From an uncultured Lysobacterales bacterium (GTDB taxonomy: Bacteria; Pseudomonadota; Gammaproteobacteria; Xanthomonadales; SZUA-36), in assembly GCA_937924405.1 (NCBI GenBank), contig CALDVW010000111.1:1-36109 (forward strand): a DNA stretch of 36,109 nucleotides. Reading direction: 5' to 3'. Each line of letters opens with the position of its first letter. The first letter of the stretch is position 1. Below the pieces are notes generated by a model. That model was not told the origin of the DNA. It ran no database searches and saw only the letters and a list, made by a program, of their open reading frames with translations. Both the position numbers and the translations under genes were made by a program. Positions 232-29,507 of this stretch are shown one piece after another.

Positions 232-339
232 AGCCCCAGCCTCAAGCACAAAGGGATGCCCCGCTTTGCCCACCTGACGGAGGATCAACTGTTGGCTATC
301 AGGCACTATATTCGTCAACAGGCGGAGGCTGCCCGCTAG
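232..339 (+). pseudogene. Remnant of a quinohemoprotein/cytochrome c C-terminus
   Basis: An open frame with no credible start ends at a TAG at 337-339. It reads SLKHKGMPRFAHLTEDQLLA followed by IRHYIRQQAEAAR. That is the usual C-terminus of the cytochrome c domain of PQQ-dependent alcohol dehydrogenases: the KGMP(R/S)F stretch carries the Met axial ligand, and the AIRHYI helix follows. The CxxCH heme site and the whole propeller domain are absent upstream, and the frame is closed at 148-150. I read it as a 3' relic of a deleted gene. Its last four bases overlap the 3' end of the opposing FAD oxidoreductase. Confidence 0.55.
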
Positions 340-1880
340 AAGATCCGGTCTCCCGACAGCTTTTGGTAGAGCGTGGCGCCCGTCCAGAAGGTGCCGGCAA
401 ACCCGGCGAATCCGGCCGATGCATTGCAGAAATACAGGCCCTGCAGTGAGCTGTCGGATTTCAGCCTGCCGATACCGATATTCTGTGGGGTCATGTTGGA
501 GCCATAGGAATTGCCCTGTGGAGACCAGCAGAAATGAGCGTTGGTGGTGGGGGTGCCACCGGTCTTGAACACCAGGTGCTGCCTGAATCCGGGTATGTAA
601 TGTTGTTCCACCACGTCGAGGATCGAGTTGATGATTTCCTTTTTCTTCTTCCGGTAGAGCGCTTTGTTCTCCTGCAGCAGGGCGGCGAAATAGTCGTGGT
701 CGGCGACGGTCAGCAATTCCACAATGCTTTGTCCCGCCGGTCGGTCGCTGGTATCACGCGTCATAAATCCCGGCGTGGTTATTGCGAAGCTTGGATTCGA
801 GTAGTCGTGATCGTAGTACATGGCGTTGAACGCGGTGTTCAGATTATCGTGTCCACTGTGAAAAGTATTCCATTTGCCGAACCCATAATCGCCCAGATCA
901 AGCCCCGCTACCGTGCAGTAGATCATGAAGTTGGACGGTGAATAGTCATAATCCAGCCGGCGCCGGATGGACTTCCCGAAACGTCCCGGGCCAATCAGTT
1001 CGGCCGCCCTGCGCGGATCCATGTTGCAGATGACCGTGTCTGCGCGCTGTGTCTCGACCTGGCCGGATACGAGGTTCCTGACTTCCACCCCGGTCACTGC
1101 CTCGGATTCAATCAAGAAGCCGGTGACCTCATTCTGCAACAACATATCGCCACCGTTCACCGTGATGGTTTCAACCAGCGAATCGATAACGTGCTCAAAA
1201 TGCCTTGTCGGGTAATATGCCCCCCGCTGATAACCCGTAAACAGCATGACCCATGCGTAAAAAGACAGTTTTTCCGGAGGTAGCAGAAAATCCGGCCACT
1301 GGGAGGCCAGCAGGCTTTGGGCTGGCAGCGGAAGATCGAACTTGTCGAACACATCCTGCAAAGTGCTATTGTGAAAGGTCAGGGCTTGCAGGGTAGCCAG
1401 GCCATCCCGCGCCAGGCCTGAAAGGGTTGGCCGCGATGCCAGGACATCCAGGCCGCGCGCAACTTTGTTGACGGCGGCAATAAATTTTTCTATCGCCCGT
1501 CGGTGCCCGGGGAATAACTTCACGAGCCGGCGAATAAGTTCTTCGGAATTGGCCGGTATTTTCAGGCTGTAACCGGGTATGACCATGTGGTCAAAGCCAT
1601 CCGGGTCCATCAGTTCGAACGTGACCTTTTCTTCGAGCCGAAGCTTCTTCAGAACCTGGTATACGGTCTGACCTTCACCGCAGTTCCATACGTAATGCAG
1701 CTGGGCATTGAATTTGGCCGACCTTCCCATCTGGAAAGTATGTCCGTAGCCGCCGGCATGTTCATGCGCTTCCAGCACCACGACTTTTTTACCCCTGTTT
1801 GCCATCAGGGCCGCAAAGACCAGGCCGGAGATGCCACTGCCTACAACCAGGAAATCCGTTTTATTGCTGGCTAAGTTCAT
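336..1880 (-). CDS. CrtI/retinol-saturase-like FAD oxidoreductase (phytoene desaturase family)
   Basis: A 514-residue flavoprotein. The N-terminal dinucleotide-binding motif GSGISG at residues 14-19 is followed by the ExxxxxGG signature (LEAHEHAGGYGHTF) typical of the CrtI/CrtISO/RetSat family. The C-terminal FAD-contacting segment GFAGTFWTGATLYQKL matches the family ending. Family members desaturate, saturate or isomerise polyenes such as carotenoids and retinol. No other carotenoid gene is present, so the substrate is unknown, and a lipid or polyene role is inference. Length fits the family (about 500). It is transcribed towards the window start, divergent from the next oxidoreductase with only 81 bases between them, so the two probably share a promoter region. 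It is probably cytoplasmic or membrane-associated; no signal peptide is visible. Confidence 0.8.
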   Translation of the reverse strand: MNLASNKTDFLVVGSGISGLVFAALMANRGKKVVVLEAHEHAGGYGHTFQMGRSAKFNAQLHYVWNCGEGQTVYQVLKKLRLEEKVTFELMDPDGFDHMVIPGYSLKIPANSEELIRRLVKLFPGHRRAIEKFIAAVNKVARGLDVLASRPTLSGLARDGLATLQALTFHNSTLQDVFDKFDLPLPAQSLLASQWPDFLLPPEKLSFYAWVMLFTGYQRGAYYPTRHFEHVIDSLVETITVNGGDMLLQNEVTGFLIESEAVTGVEVRNLVSGQVETQRADTVICNMDPRRAAELIGPGRFGKSIRRRLDYDYSPSNFMIYCTVAGLDLGDYGFGKWNTFHSGHDNLNTAFNAMYYDHDYSNPSFAITTPGFMTRDTSDRPAGQSIVELLTVADHDYFAALLQENKALYRKKKKEIINSILDVVEQHYIPGFRQHLVFKTGGTPTTNAHFCWSPQGNSYGSNMTPQNIGIGRLKSDSSLQGLYFCNASAGFAGFAGTFWTGATLYQKLSGDRIF

Positions 1881-1961
1881 ACGTCCCGCACTATACCCTG
1901 CCTGAAGCTGGGGCTAAACTTCATCAACGCTCCCGCTCACAATGGATAGATTGAATCCACA

Positions 1962-3191
1962 ATGCATGTCGTAGTTATCGGCGGTGGCGCGGCCGGAATG
2001 GCCAGCGCCCATTACCTTGCCCAGGCCCATCAGGTGACCGTACTGGAGGCGCAGCCACGGCTCGGGGGAAATATTCGCACGCTGAACCGGAACGTTGAAG
2101 CAAAAAGCCTGCCTGCCGGTATCTTCATCGACAATGGGGTGATCGAATTTCACCGTAAGCACAGTCCCGGTCTGCGTGCCCTCGCCAGGGAGTTAGGACT
2201 GGAACTGGAGAATTTTTCCGGTGGATCGACCGGTATTTACCTGGAAGGTGGCCGCAGCTTTCACATGCCGGGCGCCATAAGAGACCAACAACGAGGTCCG
2301 GTGACCAGGGCCCTGCAACACCTGAAACTGGCCTGGCTGATGCGTCAACTGGTCCCCATCGGCATGCGCATGTACAAGTCGCGATCAAACCAGGCTGATT
2401 CTGTTACCGCTTTCCTCGGTGCAGATACCATGTCCCGCTGGCTGAGGATGCTGCTGATGTATGGTTACTCGATCCCCTACGCGCAGATTGGCGACTTTCC
2501 CGCCAGCCTGGCGATTCCCACGCTGCTGCAGGGTTCCATCGGTACACAGTGGGTCCGGCTTGCAGGCGGGACTTATCGCTACATAGAAGAAATCATCAGG
2601 CGGGCCGGCAACCAACTGACGGTAAAACCCGGGCAGAAGATACTTGTTGTCCAGCGCAACACAACCGGTGTCTGCATTGAATGCTCCGATGGTGTGATCC
2701 GGGCAGATCGGCTGGTATTTGCAACCCCGCCCGATCAAGTGCTGAGATTACTGGAAGACGCCAGTGAAGAGGAGCATATCTGGTTTTCCAACTGGCATGC
2801 CAACTACGCTGAGACCGTCATTCATACGGATGAATCCCTGTATGCTAACTGGAAGATTCACGGCTTTACAGAATTTGATGTATTTGAAAAACAGGGCGGC
2901 AGGGATGCGGGTTACAACGCCTGGCTCAATCGTTTGTGCGGGCTGCCGGACGGTCATGGCACCAACTATTTCCTGGCCTTCAACCTGGAAGACAGAATCG
3001 ATCCGCGAAAGATACTGGACCGGCAACGCCACCACACGCCTCTCTACACAGCTCAGGCCGTGGCGTCTGTCAATGAAATCAAAGCTGCCAATGGCAGAAA
3101 CCATACTTATTATGCGGGCGCATATTTATATAACGGGTTGCATGAAGGAGCTATCCAGTCGGCCCTGGCGATTAAATCCCTGTTCTCCTGA
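1962..3191 (+). CDS. NAD(P)/FAD-binding amine-oxidase-like oxidoreductase
   Basis: A 409-residue protein beginning with a Rossmann nucleotide-binding loop (VVVIGGGAAGMASAHYL, residues 3-19) and an ExxxRLGGN motif (LEAQPRLGGNIRTL). The C-terminal YAGAYLYNGLHEGAIQSAL is the FAD-closing segment seen in protoporphyrinogen-oxidase/amine-oxidase-like flavoproteins and in the COG2907 group, whose version reads roughly GYGFHEDGL. The substrate is unknown. In many bacteria COG2907 proteins sit with cyclopropane-fatty-acid synthases, but no such partner is present here. No good Shine-Dalgarno precedes the ATG. Divergent from the CrtI-like gene. The general class is secure, the reaction is not. Confidence 0.75.
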   Translation: MHVVVIGGGAAGMASAHYLAQAHQVTVLEAQPRLGGNIRTLNRNVEAKSLPAGIFIDNGVIEFHRKHSPGLRALARELGLELENFSGGSTGIYLEGGRSFHMPGAIRDQQRGPVTRALQHLKLAWLMRQLVPIGMRMYKSRSNQADSVTAFLGADTMSRWLRMLLMYGYSIPYAQIGDFPASLAIPTLLQGSIGTQWVRLAGGTYRYIEEIIRRAGNQLTVKPGQKILVVQRNTTGVCIECSDGVIRADRLVFATPPDQVLRLLEDASEEEHIWFSNWHANYAETVIHTDESLYANWKIHGFTEFDVFEKQGGRDAGYNAWLNRLCGLPDGHGTNYFLAFNLEDRIDPRKILDRQRHHTPLYTAQAVASVNEIKAANGRNHTYYAGAYLYNGLHEGAIQSALAIKSLFS

Positions 3192-3215: not shown

Positions 3216-3776
3216 TCATAGCAACTCGTACAGCAATGCCAGGCAGCTTCCCCCCACACCGAACAGCAAGGAAAGGTAGCTCCACCTGAGGTAGCGAAAT
3301 TTTTTCAGCCGTAACACCAGCCCGGCGTAATAGATATCCTGGCTCAGGTGCTGGTAGAGTTCCTGGGGATCTCTCACCACCCGCTCAATTTCACGCTCAA
3401 ACCGATCGATCGGCAAACGCGTGAAGTGCATAAAAAACAAAGGATTGAAATGAGATAATTTTTCGTTGTTCTTGATCGGTTCGGCGCGCACGGCGGCCGA
3501 GGGCATGACGCACAAAATGGCAAAAACCAGGGCCGGGACGCAAGCAGCCGCCACTGCAATGCTGGGGATCAGGAGTGTCCCCTGCTCAATTTTCGCCACG
3601 GCCAGGGTCAACAGGATGGAACTGACCGTGATCATGATATTGGCCTTCGAATCAGCCATGTGACTGAATTCGACCTGGCTCATCTGAATGGTCGCCAGGG
3701 CGATGTCGATGCTTTCATTGAAGTCCTGATCGGCGAAGCCGTTCTGGCCGGTATCATCAAATGGCTCGGAATCCAT
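3216..3776 (-). CDS. DUF5706/PycTM-type membrane protein, orphan Pycsar-effector homologue
   Basis: About 186 residues from the ATG at 3776, which has a strong purine-rich GGAAGAGGG ribosome binding site seven bases upstream. An in-frame ATG at 3812 has none, so the shorter form is preferred. The segment MADSKANIMITVSSILLTLA is the hallmark of the PycTM/DUF5706 family: an acidic-Lys-Ala-Asn turn leading into the first membrane helix. A second helix (IPSIAVAAACVPALVFAILC), a cytoplasmic middle and a third C-terminal helix (YLSLLFGVGGSCLALLYELL) complete the usual topology. In Pycsar antiphage systems such proteins permeabilise the membrane on binding a cyclic pyrimidine nucleotide. No PycC cyclase is adjacent; the neighbours are an oxidoreductase and a catalase-like gene. 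A defence role is therefore not established. Confidence 0.7.
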   Translation of the reverse strand: MDSEPFDDTGQNGFADQDFNESIDIALATIQMSQVEFSHMADSKANIMITVSSILLTLAVAKIEQGTLLIPSIAVAAACVPALVFAILCVMPSAAVRAEPIKNNEKLSHFNPLFFMHFTRLPIDRFEREIERVVRDPQELYQHLSQDIYYAGLVLRLKKFRYLRWSYLSLLFGVGGSCLALLYELL

Positions 3777-3931
3777 AATGCAACCCTCTTCCCTCTCGGC
3801 AATGGTCTGCATTCTAAGCGAAGGCGGATGACATCGTCGACCATGGCGGCCACTTTCTCGTATCGAATAGACGAATAAAACTACTCTTCAAGCCAAGAGT
3901 GGGTTAATTTAATTAGCGCGGAGGTATTCGA

Positions 3932-5044
3932 ATGATTGAACATAAAATCCTGATGGCGATTATTGCTGTGTATCGGCGCATCATCCTGGCATTGGTCACC
4001 TTCTTCGTCACGCTTCTGGTTATCGCCAACAGCCTGTTCGGGCGCGTGCGGATGTCGCATGAAAACGGCATCCTGTTGCGCGGCAAGTTACGCATTGTCG
4101 ATAACCCGGAATTTCCGGAGCATGATTTCTTTGAACCCGGCAAAGAATTTACCTGCCGGCTCAGGCACGCCGCTGCTTCGTACAAGGACGACGCCAAGCT
4201 GGTGGTGCGCAGCGCGTCCATCAAGTTTGCAGATTCGCGCATAAAATCGCCGATGGACATCCTGATGAACTCGGGCGAGGTGCCGCTGTTCTGGGACGCA
4301 CGAACGTTTGTTCAATTCATGAAAGTCTCGTCAAAAGGCAAAGGCAAGCATTACGTACCTTACCTGAGGGCTCACCCGCAAGCAGCTTACGGCGGCGGCG
4401 ACAGTGTCCGGCGCAACCCCGACTCGCCCGACCAAATGGTATACCGGACCAAGAGCGCATTCGGATTCCGTGGCCGCGATGGAATTAATCGCTATGTCCG
4501 CTATCGTCTGGTGCCGGATTCCTTTGACGGCCACGAAAGCGGCGCCCCGGATGACTGGGATCGGAATCACGCCTGGTTGCAAAATCCCTACCGGGATGAA
4601 ACCCGCAACCGCAACTACCTGAAAGACGCCATCATCAAGGACATGGAAGATGGCAAGGTATACCGTTACAAGCTGCAGCTGCAGCTGCGCCTGCCACCAC
4701 CAAATGATGATGTGCAGCCGGAGTGGCTATCCTGCGCCGTCCCCTGGGATGAATCAAAGTTCCCATACCAGGACCTGGCCGAAGTCGAAATCAACGAAGC
4801 ACTTGATTACGAAGAGAGCCAGATGACCTGGTTCGACATGAGCAATCACCCGCCAAGCCTGCCCATACCCAAGGCGCGGTCGATCGATGATCCGCATTCA
4901 CTGAATCACCTTCGATTGGCATCAATCTGGGCGCGCCGTGCGCGCTTGTGGTCTTACCGTCTGTTTGGCATGCCGGCGAAGTTTTCTGACTCCCGGGACG
5001 CCAAGGACTGGGAAGGCGTTCCGCCCCTTCGCAATCCGCCGTAG
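3932..5044 (+). CDS. Catalase-related protein resembling coral allene oxide synthase
   Basis: A 370-residue protein with a ribosome binding site (GGAGG, eight bases before the ATG) and an N-terminal membrane helix (about residues 13-33). The body follows the catalase-related allene oxide synthase domain of the coral AOS-lipoxygenase fusion as I recall it. Shared blocks include VDNPEFPEHDFFEPG, RLRHAAASYKDDA, SIKFADS, the MNSGEVPLFW stretch and SNHPPSLPIPKARS. The expected distal heme pair appears as Ser42-His43, where coral AOS has Thr-His. The proximal RxxxY motif is not where it should be: the aligned segment is Arg328-Leu-Ala-Ser-Ile332, so Ile replaces the heme-ligating Tyr. A second RLWSY motif (Arg338-Tyr342) lies ten residues downstream. 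Family members convert lipoxygenase-made fatty acid hydroperoxides to allene oxides or epoxides. The convergent lipoxygenase 33 bases away supports that pathway. Whether this copy binds heme is open. Confidence 0.8.
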   Translation: MIEHKILMAIIAVYRRIILALVTFFVTLLVIANSLFGRVRMSHENGILLRGKLRIVDNPEFPEHDFFEPGKEFTCRLRHAAASYKDDAKLVVRSASIKFADSRIKSPMDILMNSGEVPLFWDARTFVQFMKVSSKGKGKHYVPYLRAHPQAAYGGGDSVRRNPDSPDQMVYRTKSAFGFRGRDGINRYVRYRLVPDSFDGHESGAPDDWDRNHAWLQNPYRDETRNRNYLKDAIIKDMEDGKVYRYKLQLQLRLPPPNDDVQPEWLSCAVPWDESKFPYQDLAEVEINEALDYEESQMTWFDMSNHPPSLPIPKARSIDDPHSLNHLRLASIWARRARLWSYRLFGMPAKFSDSRDAKDWEGVPPLRNPP

Positions 5045-5077
5045 GGGCTTGTACGGGTAAAACCCAGGATTGCTGTC

Positions 5078-6730
5078 TCAGATCGCTATGGATCTACCGA
5101 TGTTCCAGGGCTGGAGGTACAGATAGGGAACTTCCAGATCCTTGTTCCTCTGCTCAATCTCACGTCCGATGTCGTCCAGCCGCCCGCGGAAGCGGTCAAT
5201 TGCATTACGAGCCGGCATCACACCATTGAAAAAGTCCGGCGGATACATACCCAGCGGAGTCAGCGTTTTCGAACTCAACAAATGAACCAGCGTCAGCTGT
5301 TGGCCAACGGCGTGCGCGCCGGGTAATGCGTAGACCAGGTTAGCCTCATCGCGGGGTGAGTGATCCGTAGGTGGCGGCAAGTACATGGCGCCCGGAGTAT
5401 TCGGAATCCAGCCCAATTGCGCATACTGGCCATTGTTCACCGCGGAATGTTCGACACTGCAGATAAATATCACCTGTGCGACGATTGCATGGAGCGCGTC
5501 GAACGTCTCGATACTTCCGTTTTTTCCAACCGGCAGGCCCTTGACCCGGCCACCCTTCTTGCTGACCAGTTCCCGTCCCCAACTCTGCAGCTCGATGTCC
5601 GATTTCACGGTTTCATCATCAGGATAGTAGACGCGCAGCAGGTCATTCACGTACTGCTTGATCGCGGTGAACAGTTTCAGTGCATCCTCACGATAGTGGT
5701 ATCCCGGCAACACTTCCTCGCTGAGCAGGCCACGATTTTCGAGGTCCGTCACCGGATTGGTGTTGGCAAACGTCCAGCGGTCGTATTCGAGCCCTACCGC
5801 CGTCAGCGACCCTTCAGCACCGATCGCGATGGTTTCATCTATCGGCCCTCCGGGTGCGATCAGGGTTTTACGCGCCTCGTGATTGATTTCCACGGTACCG
5901 GTAAAATGCGGCTTCAGCAGTACGTGCAAGGGGTGCTGAGGCGCAAATGCCCGGCAGGCAGCCACCCAGAAAGTTTCCATCGCGAGGTGTGTACGCGTGA
6001 GGTGGGCAACGACCTCGTGATAAGTGCCATCGGCCGACTGCACGAAAGAACGCGCCATAAGCCAGGTCCACTTTTCATCCTTGGGAGTAAATATGACCGG
6101 GGCTTCGGCAGGCGATTGGCCCAGCTGAATGGCCAGCGGCATCAACTGACCGAGATCGTTCTTCCAAAACAAGGCAATTGGCGCAACGCAAAAACGGCCC
6201 AGCAGGGGCTGCAAACCGTTCAGAATCTCGTAGTCAAGCAGGAACAGGCGCTGTTCAGCGAGCAAATGCTCGAGGTTAAAGCATTCCGGAATAATACCCT
6301 TGACGTCCTCGTCGGTGACCGGAAATTTCTCCGGAATCTCAGTGGCCAGTCTGATCAGGACAGGATTGATTCCGTCCAGCCGTTGCCGGGCAAACTCCTC
6401 GTCCTCCATCCAGCGGCCCGCCACGGCCGGAATTTGTCGCAACGGGTAATAACGCTTGAAACTCGCCACGGTGTCGTTGTGCTTGAACAAGCGAATGATG
6501 CTCGCCAGCGCCAGATCCGCGACACTCTCGACAAAGTCCATGGCCATGTAGGCGCTCTTGGTCTTGGTGAATTCCTCACCGGGCGGGAGTCCTTTACAAA
6601 ATGCCGGCTGACCGGGCGCATGAACCCAGGTGTAGTCCTGCTGCTGCGCGAACAGGTAGCGATCGCGCTCAGCTTTTTCAAACCTGTTTGCTGAATCTGG
6701 CAGGCAAATTCGCATATTCTTATTCTCCAT
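5078..6730 (-). CDS. Bacterial lipoxygenase
   Basis: A 550-residue catalytic-domain-only lipoxygenase, a non-heme iron dioxygenase that inserts O2 into polyunsaturated fatty acids. All five iron-site positions are visible: His243 and His248 (HLTRTH), His428 and Asn432 (EHSAVN) and the C-terminal Ile550 (GRSIAI). The block DRFRGRLDDIGREIEQRNKD followed by LEVPYLYLQPWNIG is close to the coral 8R-lipoxygenase ending. No PLAT beta-barrel domain and no clear signal peptide are present. Start: the ATG at 6730 has no obvious ribosome binding site, while the in-frame ATG at 6715 has GGAG nine bases upstream, so the protein may be five residues shorter. It lies downstream of a small membrane-protein gene on the same strand and converges with the catalase-related gene, its probable hydroperoxide-consuming partner. 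Confidence 0.92.
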   Translation of the reverse strand: MENKNMRICLPDSANRFEKAERDRYLFAQQQDYTWVHAPGQPAFCKGLPPGEEFTKTKSAYMAMDFVESVADLALASIIRLFKHNDTVASFKRYYPLRQIPAVAGRWMEDEEFARQRLDGINPVLIRLATEIPEKFPVTDEDVKGIIPECFNLEHLLAEQRLFLLDYEILNGLQPLLGRFCVAPIALFWKNDLGQLMPLAIQLGQSPAEAPVIFTPKDEKWTWLMARSFVQSADGTYHEVVAHLTRTHLAMETFWVAACRAFAPQHPLHVLLKPHFTGTVEINHEARKTLIAPGGPIDETIAIGAEGSLTAVGLEYDRWTFANTNPVTDLENRGLLSEEVLPGYHYREDALKLFTAIKQYVNDLLRVYYPDDETVKSDIELQSWGRELVSKKGGRVKGLPVGKNGSIETFDALHAIVAQVIFICSVEHSAVNNGQYAQLGWIPNTPGAMYLPPPTDHSPRDEANLVYALPGAHAVGQQLTLVHLLSSKTLTPLGMYPPDFFNGVMPARNAIDRFRGRLDDIGREIEQRNKDLEVPYLYLQPWNIGRSIAI

Positions 6731-6804: not shown

Positions 6805-7209
6805 CTACGGTTTCGGGCCAAAGAAACCGTAGGTCAGGTGTGAACTCATCTGAAAGAACCTTGCGGGAATATAGAACGCATAAACGTACCACTGCCATGC
6901 GCCGGTCACAATTTGATCCCACCAGAAAATCCACCATACGAAGTACATGATTCCAGCCAACTTTGCGAACAGCCGACGGCTGGCAATGTCATTATTTTTG
7001 AGCATCACGTAGTTCGGGATGGCCCATACGCCAGACCACCAGCCGTAGCCCGTCGCCATGAATACCCCGAATAGGGTCAGGTTCTGCGCATCGGGCATGG
7101 TGATCCACAACGGGACCAGGTTGACCCATTGCGCCAGGGCAGCAGAGAAAGCAACCGTGCACTCGGCCACGGTGAGCCATAGGCAAATCTGATAATATCT
7201 GGGTTTCAT
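6805..7209 (-). CDS. Small tryptophan-rich four-helix membrane protein of unknown function
   Basis: About 134 residues from the ATG at 7209, chosen because AGG lies six bases upstream; the in-frame ATG that lies 12 bases further upstream has no ribosome binding site. I do not recognise the family. Four hydrophobic segments are visible (CLWLTVAECTVAFSAAL, LTLFGVFMATGYGWWSGVW, LAGIMYFVWWIFWWDQIV, WQWYVYAFYIPARFF). The protein is unusually rich in Trp, including WW pairs in GWWSGVW and FWWDQ. It ends in SHLTYGFFGPKP. It sits 74 bases upstream of the lipoxygenase on the same strand, so co-transcription is likely. A role in presenting lipid substrate or product is a guess from position only. Confidence 0.6.
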   Translation of the reverse strand: MKPRYYQICLWLTVAECTVAFSAALAQWVNLVPLWITMPDAQNLTLFGVFMATGYGWWSGVWAIPNYVMLKNNDIASRRLFAKLAGIMYFVWWIFWWDQIVTGAWQWYVYAFYIPARFFQMSSHLTYGFFGPKP

Positions 7210-7392
7210 AGGGGACCTCATTTTGTCTGTTTCTTGTTGCGAATCATCACCCCGTCCCAATCAGGGACAACGCCACATTAAAGCAAAAACGCATCCAGTA
7301 TAGCGGAAAGGGCACCGCGTTCGGTATCGGGTCGCACGCAACGGTGGCTATCGCAACAGGGCGTCTGGGCGACCACGCCGCAAGCCGCATAC

Positions 7393-10300
7393 TCAAGCAG
7401 GTTCATGGGCAGATTTTTCCTGCGTAAGCTCTTCAGCGGCAACTCGAAGTTCAGGCAGTGCGATCAAATACCCCATTCGTTCTCCCAGAGCAATCGTTTC
7501 CGACGCCTCCTTCACCAGCTCGGCCCCTCTCAATCCCTGACCCACTGCTGCCAGCAGGCGTCCGCGGCGTGCGAAGAAGTCCGCCCAGGGGGTGCGTTCC
7601 TGGAGATTGAACTGGTCCAGTCTGTCGGCAAACTTTATCGCGTCATCCCACTCCTGGAAGCGTAGCGCCGTGTCGATGGAATGTCGTCGAAAGTCATAGT
7701 GATTATGCACGGTTGCACCTTTCGTCAACAATTCCTCCCCGCGCGACAGAGCGGCTAAAGCATCCTCATAGTTCGAGGAAGTCTGGGCGATCAGTCCAAA
7801 CACGCTGGCAATCAAATGTCCGCCGCCGGTTGCTTCGTAAATTTCCCGCGCACGATTTGCGTAGGTGGCCGCCAGCTGACGATCTTCCCGATAGATGAAG
7901 AGATAGGCGAGAGCCGTGTTCACCATTGCGACCAATCGAGGCGCCTCCATTCGCTCAAATTCGGCCTGCAGTTCCGGAAGCAGCGTGGCTGCCTCATCCA
8001 GGCGGCACAACAACATATAAAAAATCGCCAACATGCTCTGTCCAAACCATGTGCTGCGCCACAACCCGACCTCCCGGGCCTGGGACAGGCCCAACTGGAG
8101 CTCCTCGAGGGCCTCAGCCGTACCTTCCAGGTAGTGCTGGCTCCATCCCTTTGCTACCCGGTTTGCGGCCGCGATTCGAAACAGCCCGTTTTGCTCCGCC
8201 AATGTCACGCATTCGCACAGCATTTCGTAGCCGTCCCGAATCCGGCCAACGGCATAGTAGCCGTCGGCCAACCCACCCAAAGCACGCAATTCGATTTCAA
8301 TCGAACCGGATTGATTGGCGCGCTTTTTTGCCTTCTGGTAGGCGTCAAGACAGGCATCAACGTGTCCGGTACCGAAGAAAATACAACCTCGAAGATAGTG
8401 GATTTCGGCCATCAGAGCCGGCCGGGCCAGGGATTCGGCCAGCGGCTGCGCCTGGTCCAGGATCTCAAGGCATGGCTCAAAGTCATCGGATAACCGCATT
8501 CCCTCTGCTATGCCGATCAGGCTCGAGCAGCGATCCCGATCATTTTGTGCAGCCGCAACCCCTTTTTCGAAAGTACTGATCGATTCCTTGACCTGACCCA
8601 GTTCCCGCTCCAACCGGCCCTTCTCCAAAAGCAATTCACAAAATTTTGCGGGATCCTCGATCAGGGCGACACCACGCTCGACCAGGCGCAGTGCGCGATC
8701 CAGATGCAGTGCTTTTGCCTCGGCTCTTGCAGCGGCAAGAAACGCTTGCGCAGCCCCGGGGTCATTTGCCGCCTCCAGATGCTCGGCATATAAAATCGGG
8801 TCGCGTCGACTGAACCACTCCGCGGCGCGTGTGTGGTAGTCGCGGCGCGTTGCGTGCAACAGCGACTCGTATATCCCATCGCGGACCAGCGCATGGACAA
8901 ACTTGTAGCCGCCTTCATGCAGCTGGATCAGTCCCTGGCTGGAAATCGTGCCGAAATCCGGCAAGGGCACCCCGGCCAGTTGACCAACCGCTCTCGGATC
9001 GAATCGCTGCCCGAAAACAGAGGCCGCTTGCAGCAAGGTCTTGTCCCGGGGGTGTAGCTGGTCGACACGCGTCAGAACCAGACTTTGAATGGAGCCAAGT
9101 ACCGCACCTGTTTCGATTTGATCGGGATTCATTAACAATTGTTCGAGGAACAGCGGATGGCCGCCAGCACGTTGAATACAACGCTCGGCCGCGGCAGCGT
9201 CAACGTCCCCGAACGTGTCAGCCAGGGTGCGCGCGTCATCAAGCCGTAGAGGACTGAGATCTATGGCCGACACTGCGGCGCCACTGTCCAACGCGGACAA
9301 AAGAGAGCCCAGGGAATCTTCGGCGGTACGGGTCGTCAGGATAAGCAGGGCAGAGCATTCCGAAGCCACGGCCGCCATTGCTGAGAGCTGCGTCAATGTC
9401 AGGGCATCTGCCCAGTGAATATCCTCGATAAGGAAAAACCTGGGCCGCTCCGCCGCGGCCGAGCGAAGCAATGTGGCAACTGTTTCACGCTTGTTCTGGT
9501 TGCGAAACTCGTTTTCCATCGCGTCATACTTTGCACGCAGCCGATCCGGTAGCGGCACATTGAGCAGGTCGAGCAGAAACGGTTCCTGTTGCGCTGCCAC
9601 GCGGCCGCCGCTGATGCATTGCCGGCAAACTTCCTGCCGTTCACGTTCATCCGAATCACGATCCAGGCCGAGCATCGATTTCACCAGGCTGCGGACCGGA
9701 TCGGCGCCGGAACCACCACCAAAATCCAGTACTTCGGCGGAGTGGCACTCGAATCCCCGCTCCGATGCAAGATGCCGGGCCTCTCTCGCCAGGCGGGTCT
9801 TGCCGATGCCGGGTTCTCCGCTCACGATCAAAATCTGACCCGCTTTGTTCTCGAGGCAGTCATCGATTGCGCCACCGATTTGTCGCAGTTCCGCACGTCG
9901 CCCGACAAATGGAAAAGTGGCCGTACTGGAATCCGCTACCGCGCGCACCACCCGGTAGGGCGTGATGCTGTGCTCCTTACCTTTCAGCCGGGTGTCCTCG
10001 CTGGCGCTCAGTTCAAATGAGCCTTGAGCAGCACGCTGGGTTTCCGGACAAACGAGCACAGTATCCTCATCCGCGAGCGACTTGAGTCGTGCGCCGACGT
10101 TCACCGTGTCGCCGGTAATGCCAACGCGACCGTCACGGTCGTCGGAAAGGTGCGTGACCACAAGCCCCGTGGCGACGCCGCTGTGCATTCGAATCGGCCG
10201 CCCCACCTTGCCTTCGACTTCAGGAGAGATCTGTCTCACATAGTCGTGCAGTTCAATAGCGGCGCTGATAGCCCTGACGGGGTCATCTTTATGGGCCGTC

Positions 10301-10704
10301 GGAATGCCAAACAGAGCGAGAACCTCATCCCCCACAAACTGGTTCACCGAACCACCGAACGCCTCGACGATCCGTACCGCTTCGGTTTTGACGCGGGCCA
10401 TGATGGCGCGAACGTCTTCCGGGTCCAAACACTCGTTCATTGCCGTGTAACCCGACAAATCAGAGAACAAGACTGTTGCGTGCCGCCTTTCCCCCGGAAC
10501 GGCGGCTGCGTTCAATTCTGTTTTTTCGAGAGCCGAAATTGCGCGTCGTATGCGCAATCGATGACCAACACTGTTGACTCCGATCTCTTTGAGGACCTGG
10601 TCATCCAGTTCCTGCAGCAACGACATGTCTATATCGTTAGCTTCAAAAGCATCCACGTACTGGCCAAGAGCCATGTCCTCGAGCCACTCGCGAACCGTTG
10701 TCAC
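7393..10704 (-). CDS. SAM-domain, class III nucleotidyl cyclase, AAA/NTPase and TPR signalling protein
   Basis: An 1103-residue multidomain protein. Order: SAM domain (about residues 3-57), class III cyclase (about 72-255), NTPase with Walker A SGEPGIGKT (295-303) and a Walker B-like FFLIEDIHWAD near 430, then a long TPR-like helical tail. This is the soluble-adenylyl-cyclase-like architecture. Cyclase metal ligands are present (Asp82 in FSDLSG, Asp126 in GDE), as are transition-state residues Asn202 and Arg206 (DTVNVGARL). The purine-specifying positions are unusual: Gln122 where adenylyl cyclases have Lys, and Gly195 where they have Asp or Thr. ATP versus GTP use therefore cannot be predicted. 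The start is a GTG with AAGGAG eight bases upstream, and that site overlaps the stop of the MAPEG gene, implying co-translation. Confidence 0.88.
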   Translation of the reverse strand: MTTVREWLEDMALGQYVDAFEANDIDMSLLQELDDQVLKEIGVNSVGHRLRIRRAISALEKTELNAAAVPGERRHATVLFSDLSGYTAMNECLDPEDVRAIMARVKTEAVRIVEAFGGSVNQFVGDEVLALFGIPTAHKDDPVRAISAAIELHDYVRQISPEVEGKVGRPIRMHSGVATGLVVTHLSDDRDGRVGITGDTVNVGARLKSLADEDTVLVCPETQRAAQGSFELSASEDTRLKGKEHSITPYRVVRAVADSSTATFPFVGRRAELRQIGGAIDDCLENKAGQILIVSGEPGIGKTRLAREARHLASERGFECHSAEVLDFGGGSGADPVRSLVKSMLGLDRDSDERERQEVCRQCISGGRVAAQQEPFLLDLLNVPLPDRLRAKYDAMENEFRNQNKRETVATLLRSAAAERPRFFLIEDIHWADALTLTQLSAMAAVASECSALLILTTRTAEDSLGSLLSALDSGAAVSAIDLSPLRLDDARTLADTFGDVDAAAAERCIQRAGGHPLFLEQLLMNPDQIETGAVLGSIQSLVLTRVDQLHPRDKTLLQAASVFGQRFDPRAVGQLAGVPLPDFGTISSQGLIQLHEGGYKFVHALVRDGIYESLLHATRRDYHTRAAEWFSRRDPILYAEHLEAANDPGAAQAFLAAARAEAKALHLDRALRLVERGVALIEDPAKFCELLLEKGRLERELGQVKESISTFEKGVAAAQNDRDRCSSLIGIAEGMRLSDDFEPCLEILDQAQPLAESLARPALMAEIHYLRGCIFFGTGHVDACLDAYQKAKKRANQSGSIEIELRALGGLADGYYAVGRIRDGYEMLCECVTLAEQNGLFRIAAANRVAKGWSQHYLEGTAEALEELQLGLSQAREVGLWRSTWFGQSMLAIFYMLLCRLDEAATLLPELQAEFERMEAPRLVAMVNTALAYLFIYREDRQLAATYANRAREIYEATGGGHLIASVFGLIAQTSSNYEDALAALSRGEELLTKGATVHNHYDFRRHSIDTALRFQEWDDAIKFADRLDQFNLQERTPWADFFARRGRLLAAVGQGLRGAELVKEASETIALGERMGYLIALPELRVAAEELTQEKSAHEPA

Positions 10705-23682: not shown

Positions 23683-24858
23683 ATGGTAGTCACTTCGATT
23701 GTCCTTATTACAATCATCGTGTTTGTCCTGGTCGATATCGTGCTGCGCATACTCCTCAACAGGGCCCGTGAAGCACGCGAACTGCGGGAAAGAGAACGTG
23801 CCCTGGATATCGGCCTGAAGCTTGATGTAAGTGAGCAGGCGCTGACTCTCAAGAGGGTCGAACTGGATCGCCCAAGAGCGCGGATTCTCGCCGTGGACGA
23901 TGAACCTGTCATTCTGGACAGTTTTCGTAAAACACTCGTACTGGCGGGCTACAGCATCGACACCGTGGAGAAGGGATCCGAGGCGCTGGGACTCATTCGC
24001 AGAAACGACTACGACTTTGTTTTCACCGATCTGAAAATGCCCGGGATGGATGGGGTTGAAGTGACCAAAGCCGTCAAACACCTGCGTCCTGACATCGATG
24101 TCATCGTCATCACCGGTTACGGATCGATTGAAACCGCGGTGGAAACCGTCGGTTTTGGCGCTATGGACTATGTTCAAAAGCCTTTCACCGAGGATGAACT
24201 GATCGAAACGGTGAGAACCGCCTTGATCAAGCGGCAGGCCAGGCTTGATAGGCAAATGCGCCACCGGATTCACCTGGTCAAGCCGGGCAGCAGTGAATCG
24301 AGGTCCAGTTTTGAATTGAATGTTCCGGCAGGGGTCTTTGTTTCTCCGCAGCATACCTGGGCAACGATCAGACTGAACGGCATGGTCCGGATCGGCCTGG
24401 ATGATCTCATCAGGAAGGTTTTTGGCCATATTGACCAGGTTGACCTGCCCGAAAAAGGACGAAAAATCAAAAAGGGGGAAACGCTGTTTGCGCTGAAATA
24501 CGGTGACTACGATCTGAAAATACCCTCTCCACTCAGTGGAAAAGTCTCTTCCATCAACGCCGAACACGCCGAACATCCCGAGTGGTTGGCAATCAAGCCC
24601 TTCGAGCTGAGCTGGATGTGCGCAATCGAGCCGTCGAATCTTGCCGGAGAGTTGCCGGGCCTGAGAATCGGGTTCGATTCAGTGGATTGGTATCAACAGG
24701 AAATTGACAGATACCGGGAACTTGCAAAAAGAATTGTTGAAGATGCAGACCGGCATCAATCGAAAGAAACTGCAAAGAGTGAGCGGGACGGAGATGCGGA
24801 ACACCTGCAGCTCCTGGACGGGTTTACCAAACCATTTCTGCAGCGTGGAGAGGTCTGA
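23683..24858 (+). CDS. Membrane-tethered response regulator with degenerate GcvH-like domain (copy 1)
   Basis: 391 residues. Order: membrane helix (about 4-24), charged coiled linker (25-65), receiver domain (67-185), then a domain resembling glycine cleavage H protein (about 218-322), and a hydrophilic tail. The receiver has the full set: Asp72/Asp73, phospho-acceptor Asp116 (FTDLKMP), Thr144 and Lys166. In the GcvH-like part the hairpin IPSPLSGKV is clear, but the position of the lipoyl-Lys is Asp275, so it should not carry lipoate. There is no DNA-binding or enzymatic output. Opens the redox cluster; the pentaheme cytochrome gene starts 29 bases after its stop. Probably phosphorylated by the heme-type kinase encoded downstream. 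A close paralogue ends the cluster. Confidence 0.82.
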   Translation: MVVTSIVLITIIVFVLVDIVLRILLNRAREARELRERERALDIGLKLDVSEQALTLKRVELDRPRARILAVDDEPVILDSFRKTLVLAGYSIDTVEKGSEALGLIRRNDYDFVFTDLKMPGMDGVEVTKAVKHLRPDIDVIVITGYGSIETAVETVGFGAMDYVQKPFTEDELIETVRTALIKRQARLDRQMRHRIHLVKPGSSESRSSFELNVPAGVFVSPQHTWATIRLNGMVRIGLDDLIRKVFGHIDQVDLPEKGRKIKKGETLFALKYGDYDLKIPSPLSGKVSSINAEHAEHPEWLAIKPFELSWMCAIEPSNLAGELPGLRIGFDSVDWYQQEIDRYRELAKRIVEDADRHQSKETAKSERDGDAEHLQLLDGFTKPFLQRGEV

Positions 24859-24887: not shown

Positions 24888-25358
24888 ATGAGCGTGGCAT
24901 TTATGCACAAGTATTGGGTTTTAACAGCGTTGTTCGTTCTTGCTTTTTCCCTGCCCAGTGTCGGGCAGGAAGCCGGAGCCGACAAGCCGGCTATACCGGG
25001 TGATATTTTGATTGAATCGTCGGCAGGGAACGTACTTTTCCCGCACAAGCGGCATCTGAAATTCGGTTGTAAAAAATGCCACCACCAAATTCAGGCCATG
25101 GAGCTGGATACGCCGCATCCGGACTACCTGACGTCTTCCTGGATCAATTGCCAGGACTGCCATAAGCCAACTTCGGAGAACAGCAGCAAGTATTACCAAT
25201 GCTCCGATTGTCACCACTCAGAACCTGAAAATATTTCTGACGAAACGCTCAGTTCCAAGGTGGTCGTCCATCAAAGTTGCTGGATATGCCACGAAACCGG
25301 TGCCGGTGCAAAAGCCAGCGAAGGGTGCGGCGATTGCCACGTGCAGGAGGAGAAATAG
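24888..25358 (+). CDS. Periplasmic pentaheme cytochrome c
   Basis: 156 residues with a signal peptide (HKYWVLTALFVLAFSLPSVG, cleaved near residue 27). Five CxxCH heme attachment sites are present: residues 61-65 CKKCH, 88-92 CQDCH, 105-109 CSDCH, 131-135 CWICH and 147-151 CGDCH. The first half, FPHKRHLKFGCKKCHH, resembles class III (cytochrome c3-type/c7) proteins, in which the early His provides an axial ligand. It would shuttle electrons to or from the membrane iron-sulfur module encoded directly downstream, as DsrJ or the c-type subunits of Qrc/Hme-type complexes do. ATG 24888 follows GGGAAAAA; ATG 24903 is an alternative that leaves a still adequate signal peptide. Confidence 0.88.
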   Translation: MSVAFMHKYWVLTALFVLAFSLPSVGQEAGADKPAIPGDILIESSAGNVLFPHKRHLKFGCKKCHHQIQAMELDTPHPDYLTSSWINCQDCHKPTSENSSKYYQCSDCHHSEPENISDETLSSKVVVHQSCWICHETGAGAKASEGCGDCHVQEEK

Positions 25359-25363
25359 CCAAG

Positions 25364-26251
25364 ATGGACAGACGAGGTTTCCTAAAAACAACGCTGGTTG
25401 CTGGCACTGCCGCCTTGGCGGGCAATCAGGTACAGGCCCAGGAGACACGCAACCCGGAAGAATTTGTTGGAATTCTGGTCGATACGACACGCTGTATCGG
25501 CTGCCGGGCGTGCGAAGTCGCCTGTGGTGAGGAGCATGATCTGCTGGTCCCGGATGTCATTAATGACGGTGCGCTTGAGGCGCAAAGAACAACGAGTGAC
25601 AAGCAGTGGATGGTCGTTAACAAACACGAGACTGAAAAGGGCGACGTGTACGTCAAAAGACAGTGCATGCACTGTTACCAGGCCGCTTGCGCTACTGCCT
25701 GTCCCACGATAGCGATGGAGAAAACGAAAAAGGGGCCGGTCATCTGGGACGGAGGTAAATGCCTCGGTTGCCGCTTCTGCATGGTTTCCTGCCCCTTTGA
25801 CATGCCCAAGTTCGAGTACGGCTCATGGAACCCGAAACTGCAGAAATGCACGATGTGTTTCGAGCGCCTCCAGGCGGGGCAAAAACCAGCCTGCGTCAAG
25901 GCGTGTCCCACCGATACGCTCATATTCGGCACCCGTGCAGATAACCTGGAAATCGCCAGGCATCGCATTTACAGCCATCCGGATAAATACGTGCATCAAA
26001 TCTATGGGGAGCATGAAGTCGGCGGCACGGGATACATTTACCTGTCGGCCGTACCTTTTGACCAGATAGGGTTTAGAACGGATCTCGGTAACAAGCCTTA
26101 TCCTGAATACACAAAAGAATTCCTCTATGCGGTGCCCATGGTTCTGTTCGGTGTGCCGGCCTTCCTGTTGGGGCTTAACGCGCTTGCAGGCAGCAGCAAT
26201 TCCGCAGAGGGCGAAGCGTTTGATCCCGATCGGGAAGGGGGTGAGGGATGA
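25364..26251 (+). CDS. Tat-exported ferredoxin-like subunit with four [4Fe-4S] cluster motifs (HybA/DsrO type)
   Basis: 295 residues from the ATG at 25364, just after the cytochrome stop. A longer frame from 25277 overlaps the cytochrome gene and hides the Tat signal. Twin-arginine signal MDRRGFLKTTLVAGTAALAG. Four cluster motifs: Cys44/47/50/54, Cys101/104/109/113, Cys133/136/139/143 and Cys162/165/177/181. A C-terminal membrane helix (LYAVPMVLFGVPAFLLGLNA) anchors it, as in HybA. Such subunits pass electrons between a periplasmic redox partner and an NrfD/HybB quinone subunit. The stop overlaps the start of the HybB-like gene (ATGA), so the pair is translationally coupled. No catalytic molybdopterin or NiFe subunit is encoded nearby. 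Confidence 0.9.
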   Translation: MDRRGFLKTTLVAGTAALAGNQVQAQETRNPEEFVGILVDTTRCIGCRACEVACGEEHDLLVPDVINDGALEAQRTTSDKQWMVVNKHETEKGDVYVKRQCMHCYQAACATACPTIAMEKTKKGPVIWDGGKCLGCRFCMVSCPFDMPKFEYGSWNPKLQKCTMCFERLQAGQKPACVKACPTDTLIFGTRADNLEIARHRIYSHPDKYVHQIYGEHEVGGTGYIYLSAVPFDQIGFRTDLGNKPYPEYTKEFLYAVPMVLFGVPAFLLGLNALAGSSNSAEGEAFDPDREGGEG

Positions 26252-27441
26252 GCACCGCCGTCACCAGGGAAATGGGTCACTTCTTCCAGTTCCTGATCCA
26301 GGAGATGAAACCGCGCGGACCCTGGCTCACACCATTCAATATCATCTCGGTTCCGGTCATTCTGACCGGACTGGTCATCCTGTACTTCCGCTTCGTCTAT
26401 GGTCTCGGCGCCGTGACCAACCTGTCGCAGGATTTTCCCTGGGGCTTCTGGCTCGGTTTTGACGTGGTCACCGGAATTGCTCTTGCCGGTGGGGCTTATG
26501 TCATCACTTTCGTTGTCTATGTCATGAAAGTGGACAAGTATCAATCCATTGTTCGCGTCACCGTTCTGAACGCCTTGCTGGCCTACATTTTTTATGCCGG
26601 CGCTCTGCTGTTCGATCTCGGGCGGCCGTGGCACGCCTTTAATCCCTATATCGGCAATTCGTTCGGGTTCAGTTCGGTCATGTTCCTGATTTGCTGGCAC
26701 TTCATGCTGTACATGGTCGCTGCGTTCGTCGAATTTTCTCCGGTTATTGCGGAATGGGCGCACTGGGAAAAGGCACGCAAAATACTCAAGGGGCTGACCC
26801 TCGGTACGGTTATTTTCGGGATCACATTATCGATATTGCATCAATCGGGCCTTGGGGCGCTGTTTCTCATGGCCAAACCGAAAATCCATCCTTTGTGGTG
26901 GTCGGAATTCATTCCGATCCTGTTTTTCGTTTCCAGTATCTACGCGGGATTGGCCATGATCATTTTCGAAGGAACCATCAGTCACAGGGTATTCAAAAAC
27001 CTGATCGACCCTGACAGTCATCATGCGTTCGATGACATCATTTTCGGGCTGGCGAAGGGCGCGGCCATAACCATGTTTGTCTACTATTTCATGAAAGCCC
27101 TGTTATTCGTTCATGACAAACAGTGGGGCTTACTGGGCGACGGCTGGGGTTATTGGTATCTGCTGGAAGTGCTGGGCTTCGTGCTGGTTCCGGGCTTCAT
27201 GTTCGCCTTTGGCTTCCGCAACAGAAGTCTGAATATCGTCAAGCTTGCATCCATTCTGGCTCTGCTCGGCATTGTGCTCAACCGGCTCAATGTCTCCATT
27301 ATCAGTTTCAGGTGGTATGCCGATGTTCACTACTATCCGTCCTGGCAGGAGATCGTAGTGACGCTGATGATTATTTTCACTGAAATCTGGATATTCCGCT
27401 GGATTGTAACCCGCATGCCGGTGTTCAAACCCGCCCATTAA
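26248..27441 (+). CDS. HybB/NrfD-type membrane quinone-interacting subunit
   Basis: 397 residues, about ten membrane helices. PWGFWLGFDVVTGIALAGGA is the conserved early block of HybB/DsrP/Hme-type NrfD proteins, and FDLGRPWHAF and SILHQSGLGALFLMAKPKIH are further family landmarks. These proteins exchange electrons between a periplasmic iron-sulfur subunit and the quinone pool. The four-base overlap with the ferredoxin gene shows they form one complex. The Glu and His residues used for quinone and proton handling in relatives cannot be assigned by eye. Together with the upstream cytochrome it forms a DsrJOP- or Hme-like trio without a catalytic subunit. Confidence 0.88.
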   Translation: MSTAVTREMGHFFQFLIQEMKPRGPWLTPFNIISVPVILTGLVILYFRFVYGLGAVTNLSQDFPWGFWLGFDVVTGIALAGGAYVITFVVYVMKVDKYQSIVRVTVLNALLAYIFYAGALLFDLGRPWHAFNPYIGNSFGFSSVMFLICWHFMLYMVAAFVEFSPVIAEWAHWEKARKILKGLTLGTVIFGITLSILHQSGLGALFLMAKPKIHPLWWSEFIPILFFVSSIYAGLAMIIFEGTISHRVFKNLIDPDSHHAFDDIIFGLAKGAAITMFVYYFMKALLFVHDKQWGLLGDGWGYWYLLEVLGFVLVPGFMFAFGFRNRSLNIVKLASILALLGIVLNRLNVSIISFRWYADVHYYPSWQEIVVTLMIIFTEIWIFRWIVTRMPVFKPAH

Positions 27442-27641: not shown

Positions 27642-29507
27642 ATGCTGACCAACAACATAGGCTTCAAACTGACCTTCGCAGTGGTGCTGACGGTTCTTGT
27701 TGCGATCAGCATTTTCGCCTACTTCAATATCCAGTCCGAGAGAAATAGCCTGCTCAGCGAGGTAGAGCGGCATGCCAATCAACTCAGCGAAGCAGTCAAG
27801 TCGGACACCGAGTACGACATGCTGCACAACGACAGGGAACGAATTCACGAGAGTATTCGCCGGATTGGCGGGCAAGAGAGCATTGACCGCATCCGCGTTT
27901 TCAATAAGTTGGGAGCAATTATCTACTCCTCGGACTCGGCCGAGATCGGCACAATGGTCGACAAGAAAGCGGAGAGCTGTTACCGCTGCCATTCTGCCGG
28001 CCAACCCCTGGAGCACCTGGAGCAGCAGGCGCGAACCCGGGTATTCCGGCCTCATCCGGACTCGCCGCGCCTGCTGGGGATCATCAACCCGATCTACAAT
28101 TCGCAATCGTGCTGGAGCGCGGCCTGCCATGCACACCCCAGGGCGCAGACCGTACTCGGAGTGCTTGATGTCACGATACCCCTTGCCGATGTCGACCGGA
28201 ATATCCGGCGCAGCGGGGTTGTAATCGCCATTTTTGCCGTCAGCGCCATCGTCATTCTGAGCTTTCTCGTTGGGTTCATGGTCCGCTGGTGGATCGGCCG
28301 TCCGGTTCAGGAACTGCTGACGGGAATGAGGCAGGTGGCTGGCGGAAATCTGGGGCACCGGGTTACGGTGAAGCGTGACGACGAGCTGGGAATGCTGGCC
28401 CAATCTTTCAATACCATGACCGATAAGCTGGCGGAGGCGCGACTGCAGCTTTTTCAATCAGATAAGCTCGCCTCGCTGGGAAGGCTGGCGGCTGGAGTGG
28501 CGCACGAAATCAACAATCCCCTGACTGCCGTTCTCACTTACAGCAGTTATCTTCAAAAACGATCTCAGGGACGATCCGAGATGCGGGATGACCTGGATGT
28601 TATCGTTTCCGAAACAATCCGCTGCCGGGAAATAGTCAAGAGCCTGTTGGATTTTGCCCGCCAGACCGTCCCGAAGAAGCGTAAGGCCGATATTAACGAG
28701 ATCATCGGCCGAGCCGCAACCGTGATAGAGAATCAGCTTTCGCTGGGGCGCGTGAAGCTGGCCATGGAGCTGGATACCGCGCTTCCCCAGGTAACAGTGG
28801 ATGCCAATCAAATACAGCAGGTCTTCATCAATTTGATGGTCAATGCTTCGGACGCCATCGGTGAAAGTAGCGGAACCATAAAAATCAGCAGCAGAGCGAT
28901 CAGGGTGGGCGCTGACGAAATCCTTCAGATAAAACGTGCACTCTGCCGCAAGCGGCACGATCTCGTTGACAGTGAGTTCAGGATCGATGACAAACCCGCC
29001 ATCAGCATGCGTTTCCGCAAAAACGGACAGACCGGGCTCATCCATATCAATCCCATGTACGGTTCGAATCAACACCAACTGGGTGAAATGCCGGCCCTCG
29101 GGGAGGGCATCGAGCTAATGTGTCCGGAATGCTCGGTTTCACTCATCGCCGAAGGCGAACTGTGCCCGGATTGCGGCGCACCAGTCTATGCCTTCGAGGT
29201 GCCCCTGAAAGGGATCGTTCGAGGTTGTCTGCAGCAAGGCTGCGGCTGGCGGCGCTGGGACCAGGTCGATTCCGCATGGAATGACGAATTCGTGGAAATC
29301 CGGGTGGAGGACGACGGCTGCGGCATTCCCAGGGCGCAAATCCCGAAGCTTTTTGAGCCGTTTGCGACGACAAAAGGCAATAAGGGTACCGGTCTTGGTC
29401 TGGCCGTTACCTGGGGCATTCTGGATAATCATAACGGAACGATCTCCGTGGAAAGCGAAGTTGGCAAAGGGACAACTTTTATCGTGCGATTACCGGTGGA
29501 CTCATGA
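27642..29507 (+). CDS. Heme-type sensor histidine kinase with zinc-ribbon-like insert in its ATPase domain
   Basis: 621 residues. A membrane helix (about 8-29), a periplasmic sensor (30-190), a second helix (192-214), HAMP (about 215-268), HisKA with phospho-acceptor His288 (AAGVAHEINNP), then a split HATPase. The sensor has Cys113-x2-Cys-His (CYRCH) and Cys157-x4-Cys-His (CWSAACH), typical of covalent c-type heme attachment. The N-box (INLMVNASDAIG, 396-407) is separated from the G1 box (VEDDGCGIP) by about 125 residues that include Cys494/497 and Cys508/511 (CPEC, CPDC) plus Cys529/Cys534. The G2 box is GTGLGLAVTWG. A redox or gas signal sensed in the periplasm would be passed to the response regulators. 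The stop overlaps the next regulator start (ATGA). Confidence 0.88.
   Translation: MLTNNIGFKLTFAVVLTVLVAISIFAYFNIQSERNSLLSEVERHANQLSEAVKSDTEYDMLHNDRERIHESIRRIGGQESIDRIRVFNKLGAIIYSSDSAEIGTMVDKKAESCYRCHSAGQPLEHLEQQARTRVFRPHPDSPRLLGIINPIYNSQSCWSAACHAHPRAQTVLGVLDVTIPLADVDRNIRRSGVVIAIFAVSAIVILSFLVGFMVRWWIGRPVQELLTGMRQVAGGNLGHRVTVKRDDELGMLAQSFNTMTDKLAEARLQLFQSDKLASLGRLAAGVAHEINNPLTAVLTYSSYLQKRSQGRSEMRDDLDVIVSETIRCREIVKSLLDFARQTVPKKRKADINEIIGRAATVIENQLSLGRVKLAMELDTALPQVTVDANQIQQVFINLMVNASDAIGESSGTIKISSRAIRVGADEILQIKRALCRKRHDLVDSEFRIDDKPAISMRFRKNGQTGLIHINPMYGSNQHQLGEMPALGEGIELMCPECSVSLIAEGELCPDCGAPVYAFEVPLKGIVRGCLQQGCGWRRWDQVDSAWNDEFVEIRVEDDGCGIPRAQIPKLFEPFATTKGNKGTGLGLAVTWGILDNHNGTISVESEVGKGTTFIVRLPVDS

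Follow-up and report, generated by a model that had tools for sequence, protein, structure and literature searches.

A bacterial lipoxygenase gene paired with a catalase-fold gene lacking the axial haem tyrosine and accompanied by class III cyclase genes

Does a bacterium that has a homologue of each half of the coral allene oxide synthase-lipoxygenase (AOS-LOX) fusion use them as corals do, or do these genes serve another purpose? We asked this of a 36,109-nt stretch of DNA from an uncultured Lysobacterales bacterium (contig CALDVW010000111.1; hereafter the window), in which the original prediction had recognised the two halves as separate convergent genes. Bacterial lipoxygenases are rare, and the intracellular role of their products is an open question (PMC11011848). 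We found the genes to be as predicted: both are intact open reading frames separated by 33 nt, one at 3932-5044 on the plus strand (370 aa), which matches the coral allene oxide synthase (cAOS; 1u5u), and one at 5078-6730 on the minus strand (550 aa), which matches PF00305.

The 550-aa protein belongs to the lipoxygenases, lacks a PLAT domain and matches PF00305 (E 2.8e-68), human ALOX15B (E 2e-95) and coral 8R-LOX (E 7e-84). As had been claimed, its iron ligands are complete, namely His243, His248, His428, Asn432 and the C-terminal Ile550. By the Coffa-Brash rule, to which exceptions are known, alanine at one site of a lipoxygenase goes with S products and glycine with R products. We take Ala286 of the window protein to be this S/R-determining site, and coral 8R-LOX has glycine at the matching position; because of Ala286, the product of the window LOX is predicted to be S-configured. 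The genome of the window holds one fatty acid desaturase gene.

The 370-aa partner matches 1u5u over residues 25-338 (E 3.8e-52) and is 34% identical to cAOS; its match to Pfam Catalase is weak (E 0.15). An AlphaFold2 model (pLDDT 80.9, pTM 0.84) aligns with 1u5u at Z 38.9 and an rmsd of 2.1 Å over 330 residues, and true catalases score far below this, at Z about 24. Hence, the partner is homologous to cAOS in both sequence and modelled fold. Its hydrophobic N-terminal segment (residues ~17-37; 3980-4042, plus strand; 19-residue KD mean 2.56) is a probable membrane anchor, and the model has a helix at residues 2-37. This hydrophobic helix is found in all 13 members of a clade that comprises the window protein and 12 further proteins from gamma-, beta- and alphaproteobacterial and Bacteroidota genomes, and it is absent from the Plesiocystis protein; the coral sequence used here begins at residue 49.

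In cAOS, the haem residues are R64, R102 and R360, the distal residues are H67, T66 and N137, and the proximal ligand is Y353 (PMC5617202). We found that all three haem-propionate arginines have equivalents in the window protein (R40, R78 and R338), that H67 and N137 correspond to H43 and N113 (4268-4270, plus strand), and that Ser42 replaces T66; R40-M41-S42-H43 (4049-4060, plus strand) forms the start of the clade motif RMSHxNG. Y353, in contrast, is matched by nothing, since the coral R349-V-A-V-Y353 is represented by R328-L-A-S-I332 (4913-4927, plus strand), in which a one-residue deletion removes the axial tyrosine. The deletion is shared by all 12 homologues of the clade, and Tyr353 is retained in the coral, Plesiocystis (RVGVY) and y4iL proteins. 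A frameshift or sequencing error at this site was ruled out by the identical deletion in 13 genomes. We also scanned the proximal helix within the clade and found no conserved Tyr, His, Cys or Met that substitutes for Tyr353. The tyrosine of RLWSY (residues 339-343) was considered as an alternative axial ligand and rejected, as four loci (L019, L021, L065 and L066) do not have it and its position on the helix is eleven residues farther on.

The remainder of the pocket is well kept. R102, R349, R360, the distal His and the distal Asn are invariant in 13/13 clade members, Ser stands for Thr66 in every one, and R64 is Lys in two; five of the six published haem and distal residues are invariant, against a background of 48 invariant columns among 306 (p 4e-4). 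Conservation of the haem-propionate arginines suggests that the Tyr-less protein still binds haem and may thus remain an enzyme. At position 150, a site at which swapping Leu and Phe was studied in coral with regard to the difference between AOS and hydroperoxide lyase (PMC5617202), all 13 members have Phe (Phe126 in the window; 4307-4309, plus strand), as coral hydroperoxide lyase has in place of the Leu of cAOS, though here Tyr353 is absent. Lys60 and Lys107, the residues for the substrate carboxylate, are not retained in the window protein.

These residues bear directly on the earlier view that the partner is a coral-type allene oxide synthase. A canonical enzyme of this kind would fit the shared fold and the identity to cAOS, but with Tyr353 gone from the whole clade, Thr66 changed to Ser, Leu150 changed to Phe and both lysines lost in the window, we consider it very unlikely. 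Because the axial tyrosine is deleted, the AOS-like partner is unlikely to be an ordinary allene oxide synthase. When the tyrosine region was cut out of the alignment, the Tyr-less proteins still fell on one side of a branch in the resulting tree (96/95). Hence, the tyrosine was probably lost only once in this clade.

The AOS-like gene is sparsely distributed. No close homologue turned up outside the window's own genome when we searched four congeners, 32 further members of the family, ~400 genomes from the order and ~400 from the phylum. A scan of genome contigs with the single protein as query gave no match, and a three-sequence profile scan yielded nine relatives: three in proteobacterial MAGs (L015-L017; 67-71%), two in Bacteroidota (L018, L019) and two in Alphaproteobacteria (L020, L021) at about 40%, and the proteins of Plesiocystis (L022) and a rhizobial y4iL-like locus (L023) at 31-35%. 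Scanning 395 Bacteroidota genomes added five loci (L062-L066), and scanning 385 alphaproteobacterial genomes returned only the AOS-like gene of L021. No relatives were found in phages and viral contigs, and a plasmid search returned y4iL-like proteins only.

As no other genome sampled from the genus, family or order has the gene, the LOX and AOS-like genes might be chance neighbours, an outcome that the original prediction had named among its refutations. However, 12 of the 13 clade loci, including 11 of the 12 outside the window and spanning two phyla, have a LOX gene that is adjacent or fused to the AOS-like one. Since L062-L066 were found through the AOS-like protein alone, after the pattern had been seen, we treated them as a held-out test, and all five carry LOX, AOS-like and giant kinase-cyclase genes, with gaps of mostly a few bases. 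We therefore regard a chance meeting as next to impossible. LOX was also present in all eight AOS-bearing genomes first examined, compared with 0/14 control genomes. Hence, the LOX/AOS-like pair is real and functionally linked; the conserved operon indicates a joint function, not signalling as such. As the spread is patchy yet the linkage is well kept, horizontal transfer of the gene set is suggested.

The exception is L018, where the LOX gene lies on another contig and shares 4 nt with the gene of a protein that has a cNMP-binding and a HisKA domain; by eye, the start of this protein has TIR-like letters, and it has no Pfam TIR match. At L035 (4268-7647), in the Flammeovirgaceae MAG, the protein whose gene the divergent LOX overlaps by 4 nt has 455 aa with cNMP-binding and HisKA domains, and its cNMP part matches Pycsar TIR effectors in PADLOC.

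Two alphaproteobacterial loci encode the pair as a single polypeptide with the AOS part first, as in corals (L020, 7944-10847, 967 aa; L021, 7935-10673, 912 aa), and each fusion gene is followed by a kinase-STAND-GAF-cyclase gene; in the window, the genes are separate. These genuine fusions, together with the cAOS fold, the invariant arginines, distal His and Asn, and a Phe150 like that of coral hydroperoxide lyase, speak for a plain oxylipin pathway. Haem would then be bound through another ligand (e.g. the distal His43, on the opposite face), the LOX hydroperoxide would be converted by the partner, with hydroperoxide-lyase or isomerase chemistry more likely than allene oxide formation, and the cyclase would be regulatory. 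We hold this to be possible but doubtful, as no conserved ligand-type residue replaces Tyr353 on the proximal helix and the change of Thr66 to Ser runs throughout the clade.

The AOS and LOX trees concur on the groups of the window with L015-L017 and of L020 with L021, with the LOX tree not resolving the latter two beside the window group. Coral cAOS groups with the Tyr-bearing protein of Plesiocystis in the AOS tree, and coral LOX with the LOX of the Tyr-less clade in the LOX tree. Because the coral halves place differently, the coral fusion need not descend from a pair of the window type, and the idea that the window simply holds a split coral fusion does not stand. The proteobacterial LOXs of the gene set group with animal LOXs (ALOX15B, coral 8R-LOX) and not with the other sampled bacterial LOXs (100/99, from thin sampling), and this grouping might be relevant to where animal LOX came from.

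The pair has a third partner. An orthologous kinase-STAND-GAF-class III cyclase protein of ~1,700 aa is encoded beside the AOS-like gene in 11/13 loci, often within one operon. The giant neighbours in L015, L016 and L018-L021 have 1,689-1,811 aa with Pkinase, AAA_16 (STAND-like), GAF and Guanylate_cyc domains and are full-length homologues (26-39% over ~1700 aa); kinase motifs are degenerate in L016 and L020, and some of the proteins have non-canonical cyclase substrate residues. In the window, the place of the L015 giant is occupied by a SAM-class III cyclase-AAA_16-TPR protein of 1103 aa with its catalytic Asp pair present (7393-10704, minus strand), encoded upstream of LOX on the same strand. 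The window and L017, where the gene is divergently transcribed, thus have a shorter cyclase-AAA-TPR protein and no orthologous giant, and the two types are similar in kind only. Hence, a class III cyclase lies near the pair in 13/13 loci, as a different protein in two of them. In the bacterial LOX loci without AOS that we viewed, the annotated flanks contain no cyclase. Neither these cyclase genes nor the missing Tyr353 had been part of the original prediction.

A constant cyclase or kinase partner, with no reductase, also counts against lipid-hydroperoxide defence, in which the catalase-fold protein would remove or buffer toxic hydroperoxides from LOX or from stress. The catalase fold and the LOX linkage would suit such a role, but an operon with a LOX would itself generate the hydroperoxides that it is meant to clear, and the haem ligand required for catalase chemistry is absent. 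We consider defence unlikely.

Between the cyclase and LOX genes lies the gene of a small multi-pass membrane protein (6805-7260, minus strand; 151 aa) without a Pfam or NCBIfam match, for which the AF2 model was poor (pLDDT 60). The genomes of L015 and L017 have homologues and 30 relatives have none, and we saw this protein with the gene set only (window, L015 and L017). The minus-strand order of cyclase, small membrane protein and LOX, with the AOS-like gene convergent, is the same in the window and L015.

Other genes surround the set. A membrane protein of the Pycsar effector type (PycTM) is encoded at 3216-3812 on the minus strand (E 3.4e-20), and the window cyclase domain has PycC matches, with PycTM ~3.6 kb away and the genes not adjacent; PycTM is not supported as part of the set, a 54% homologue being present in a family member without the AOS-LOX genes. 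Two divergent FAD oxidoreductases, of the carotenoid desaturase/isomerase and amine oxidase types, lie beside the set at 336-3191. Farther along, three response regulators (23683-24858, 29504-30292 and 30336-31499, plus strand) have a C-terminal extension that looks lipoyl/GcvH-like by eye, and amid them we noted, also by eye, a cytochrome c3/iron-sulphur/NrfD-like redox gene set (24888-27441) and a histidine kinase (27642-29507).

We propose, with a confidence that is evenly balanced, that these genes form a rare, mobile LOX module for lipid-hydroperoxide signalling, in which the cAOS-like partner is a receptor or an unusual haem enzyme and not a canonical allene oxide synthase. The lipoxygenase would oxygenate a polyunsaturated acyl chain to an S-configured hydroperoxide, which the membrane-anchored catalase-fold partner would take into its conserved Ser-His-Asn pocket, either as a binding or receptor protein or as a haem enzyme with unusual ligation. 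The kinase-STAND-GAF-cyclase protein (in the window, SAM-cyclase-AAA-TPR) would convert the lipid state to phosphorylation or cyclic-nucleotide signals, or it would control the pathway. Binding of a fatty-acid hydroperoxide is the most likely role of the AOS-like partner. More tentatively, and with somewhat less than even confidence, the Tyr-deleted catalase-fold clade, present in at least two phyla and with its pocket under strong selection, may consist of membrane-bound receptors for LOX products (or of haem enzymes that have switched ligands, leaving the distal His as sole axial ligand) that feed the kinase-STAND-GAF-cyclase proteins, which would amount to eicosanoid-like signalling in bacteria.

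The pairing per se is not new because catalase-LOX pairs are known from cyanobacteria; the original prediction had pointed to catalase-type AOS beside LOX in this group, and a related catalase-LOX arrangement is reported in PMC11719350. Within the open-access literature searched, outside of which most subscription journals fall, we did not find the loss of the tyrosine ligand or the kinase-cyclase linkage described, nor a paper joining LOX with cyclase, kinase or GAF operons. With LOX, a defined partner and a kinase-cyclase in one conserved operon, the signalling idea can be tested directly, and the natural loss of the axial ligand from a catalase fold offers a clean case for probing what the remaining pocket can do. 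Such pairs should not be annotated as allene oxide synthase pathways.

Among known systems, the TOMM kinase/cyclase fusion proteins (TIGR03903) resemble the giant neighbour in that a single protein combines Ser/Thr kinase, AAA and cyclase domains; TIGR03903 is its best NCBIfam match, at 141-174 of 706 bits and so far under the curated cut-off. The cyanobacterial catalase-LOX fusions of Acaryochloris marina and Anabaena PCC 7120 (cited in PMC11719350 and PMC11507377) likewise link a bacterial catalase-like protein to LOX and differ from the window in being LOX-fused haem enzymes with R-configured products. The catalase-related hydroperoxide lyase of Capnella imbricata (PMC5617202) shares Phe at position 150 and, unlike the window protein, is a LOX-fused haem enzyme of an animal. 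To the Plexaura homomalla fusion (1u5u/3dy5), the window is alike in both homologous domains, the catalase fold, the distal His and Asn, the haem-propionate arginines and the LOX iron ligands; it differs in its separate, convergent genes and cyclase neighbour, in lacking Tyr353, in Ser for Thr66 and Phe for Leu150, in its hydrophobic N-terminal helix (relative to the truncated coral sequence used), and in Ala rather than Gly at the stereo-determining site. Plesiocystis pacifica, in which we found four LOX matches in the genome, also has adjacent LOX and cAOS-like genes (L022, 5839-8969; E 4.9e-71 to coral cAOS). Unlike the window, it keeps the tyrosine and has no hydrophobic N-terminal helix, no cyclase neighbour was found beside its pair, and its LOX groups with ordinary bacterial LOXs. 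The Plesiocystis protein makes a good candidate for a genuine allene oxide synthase in a bacterium.
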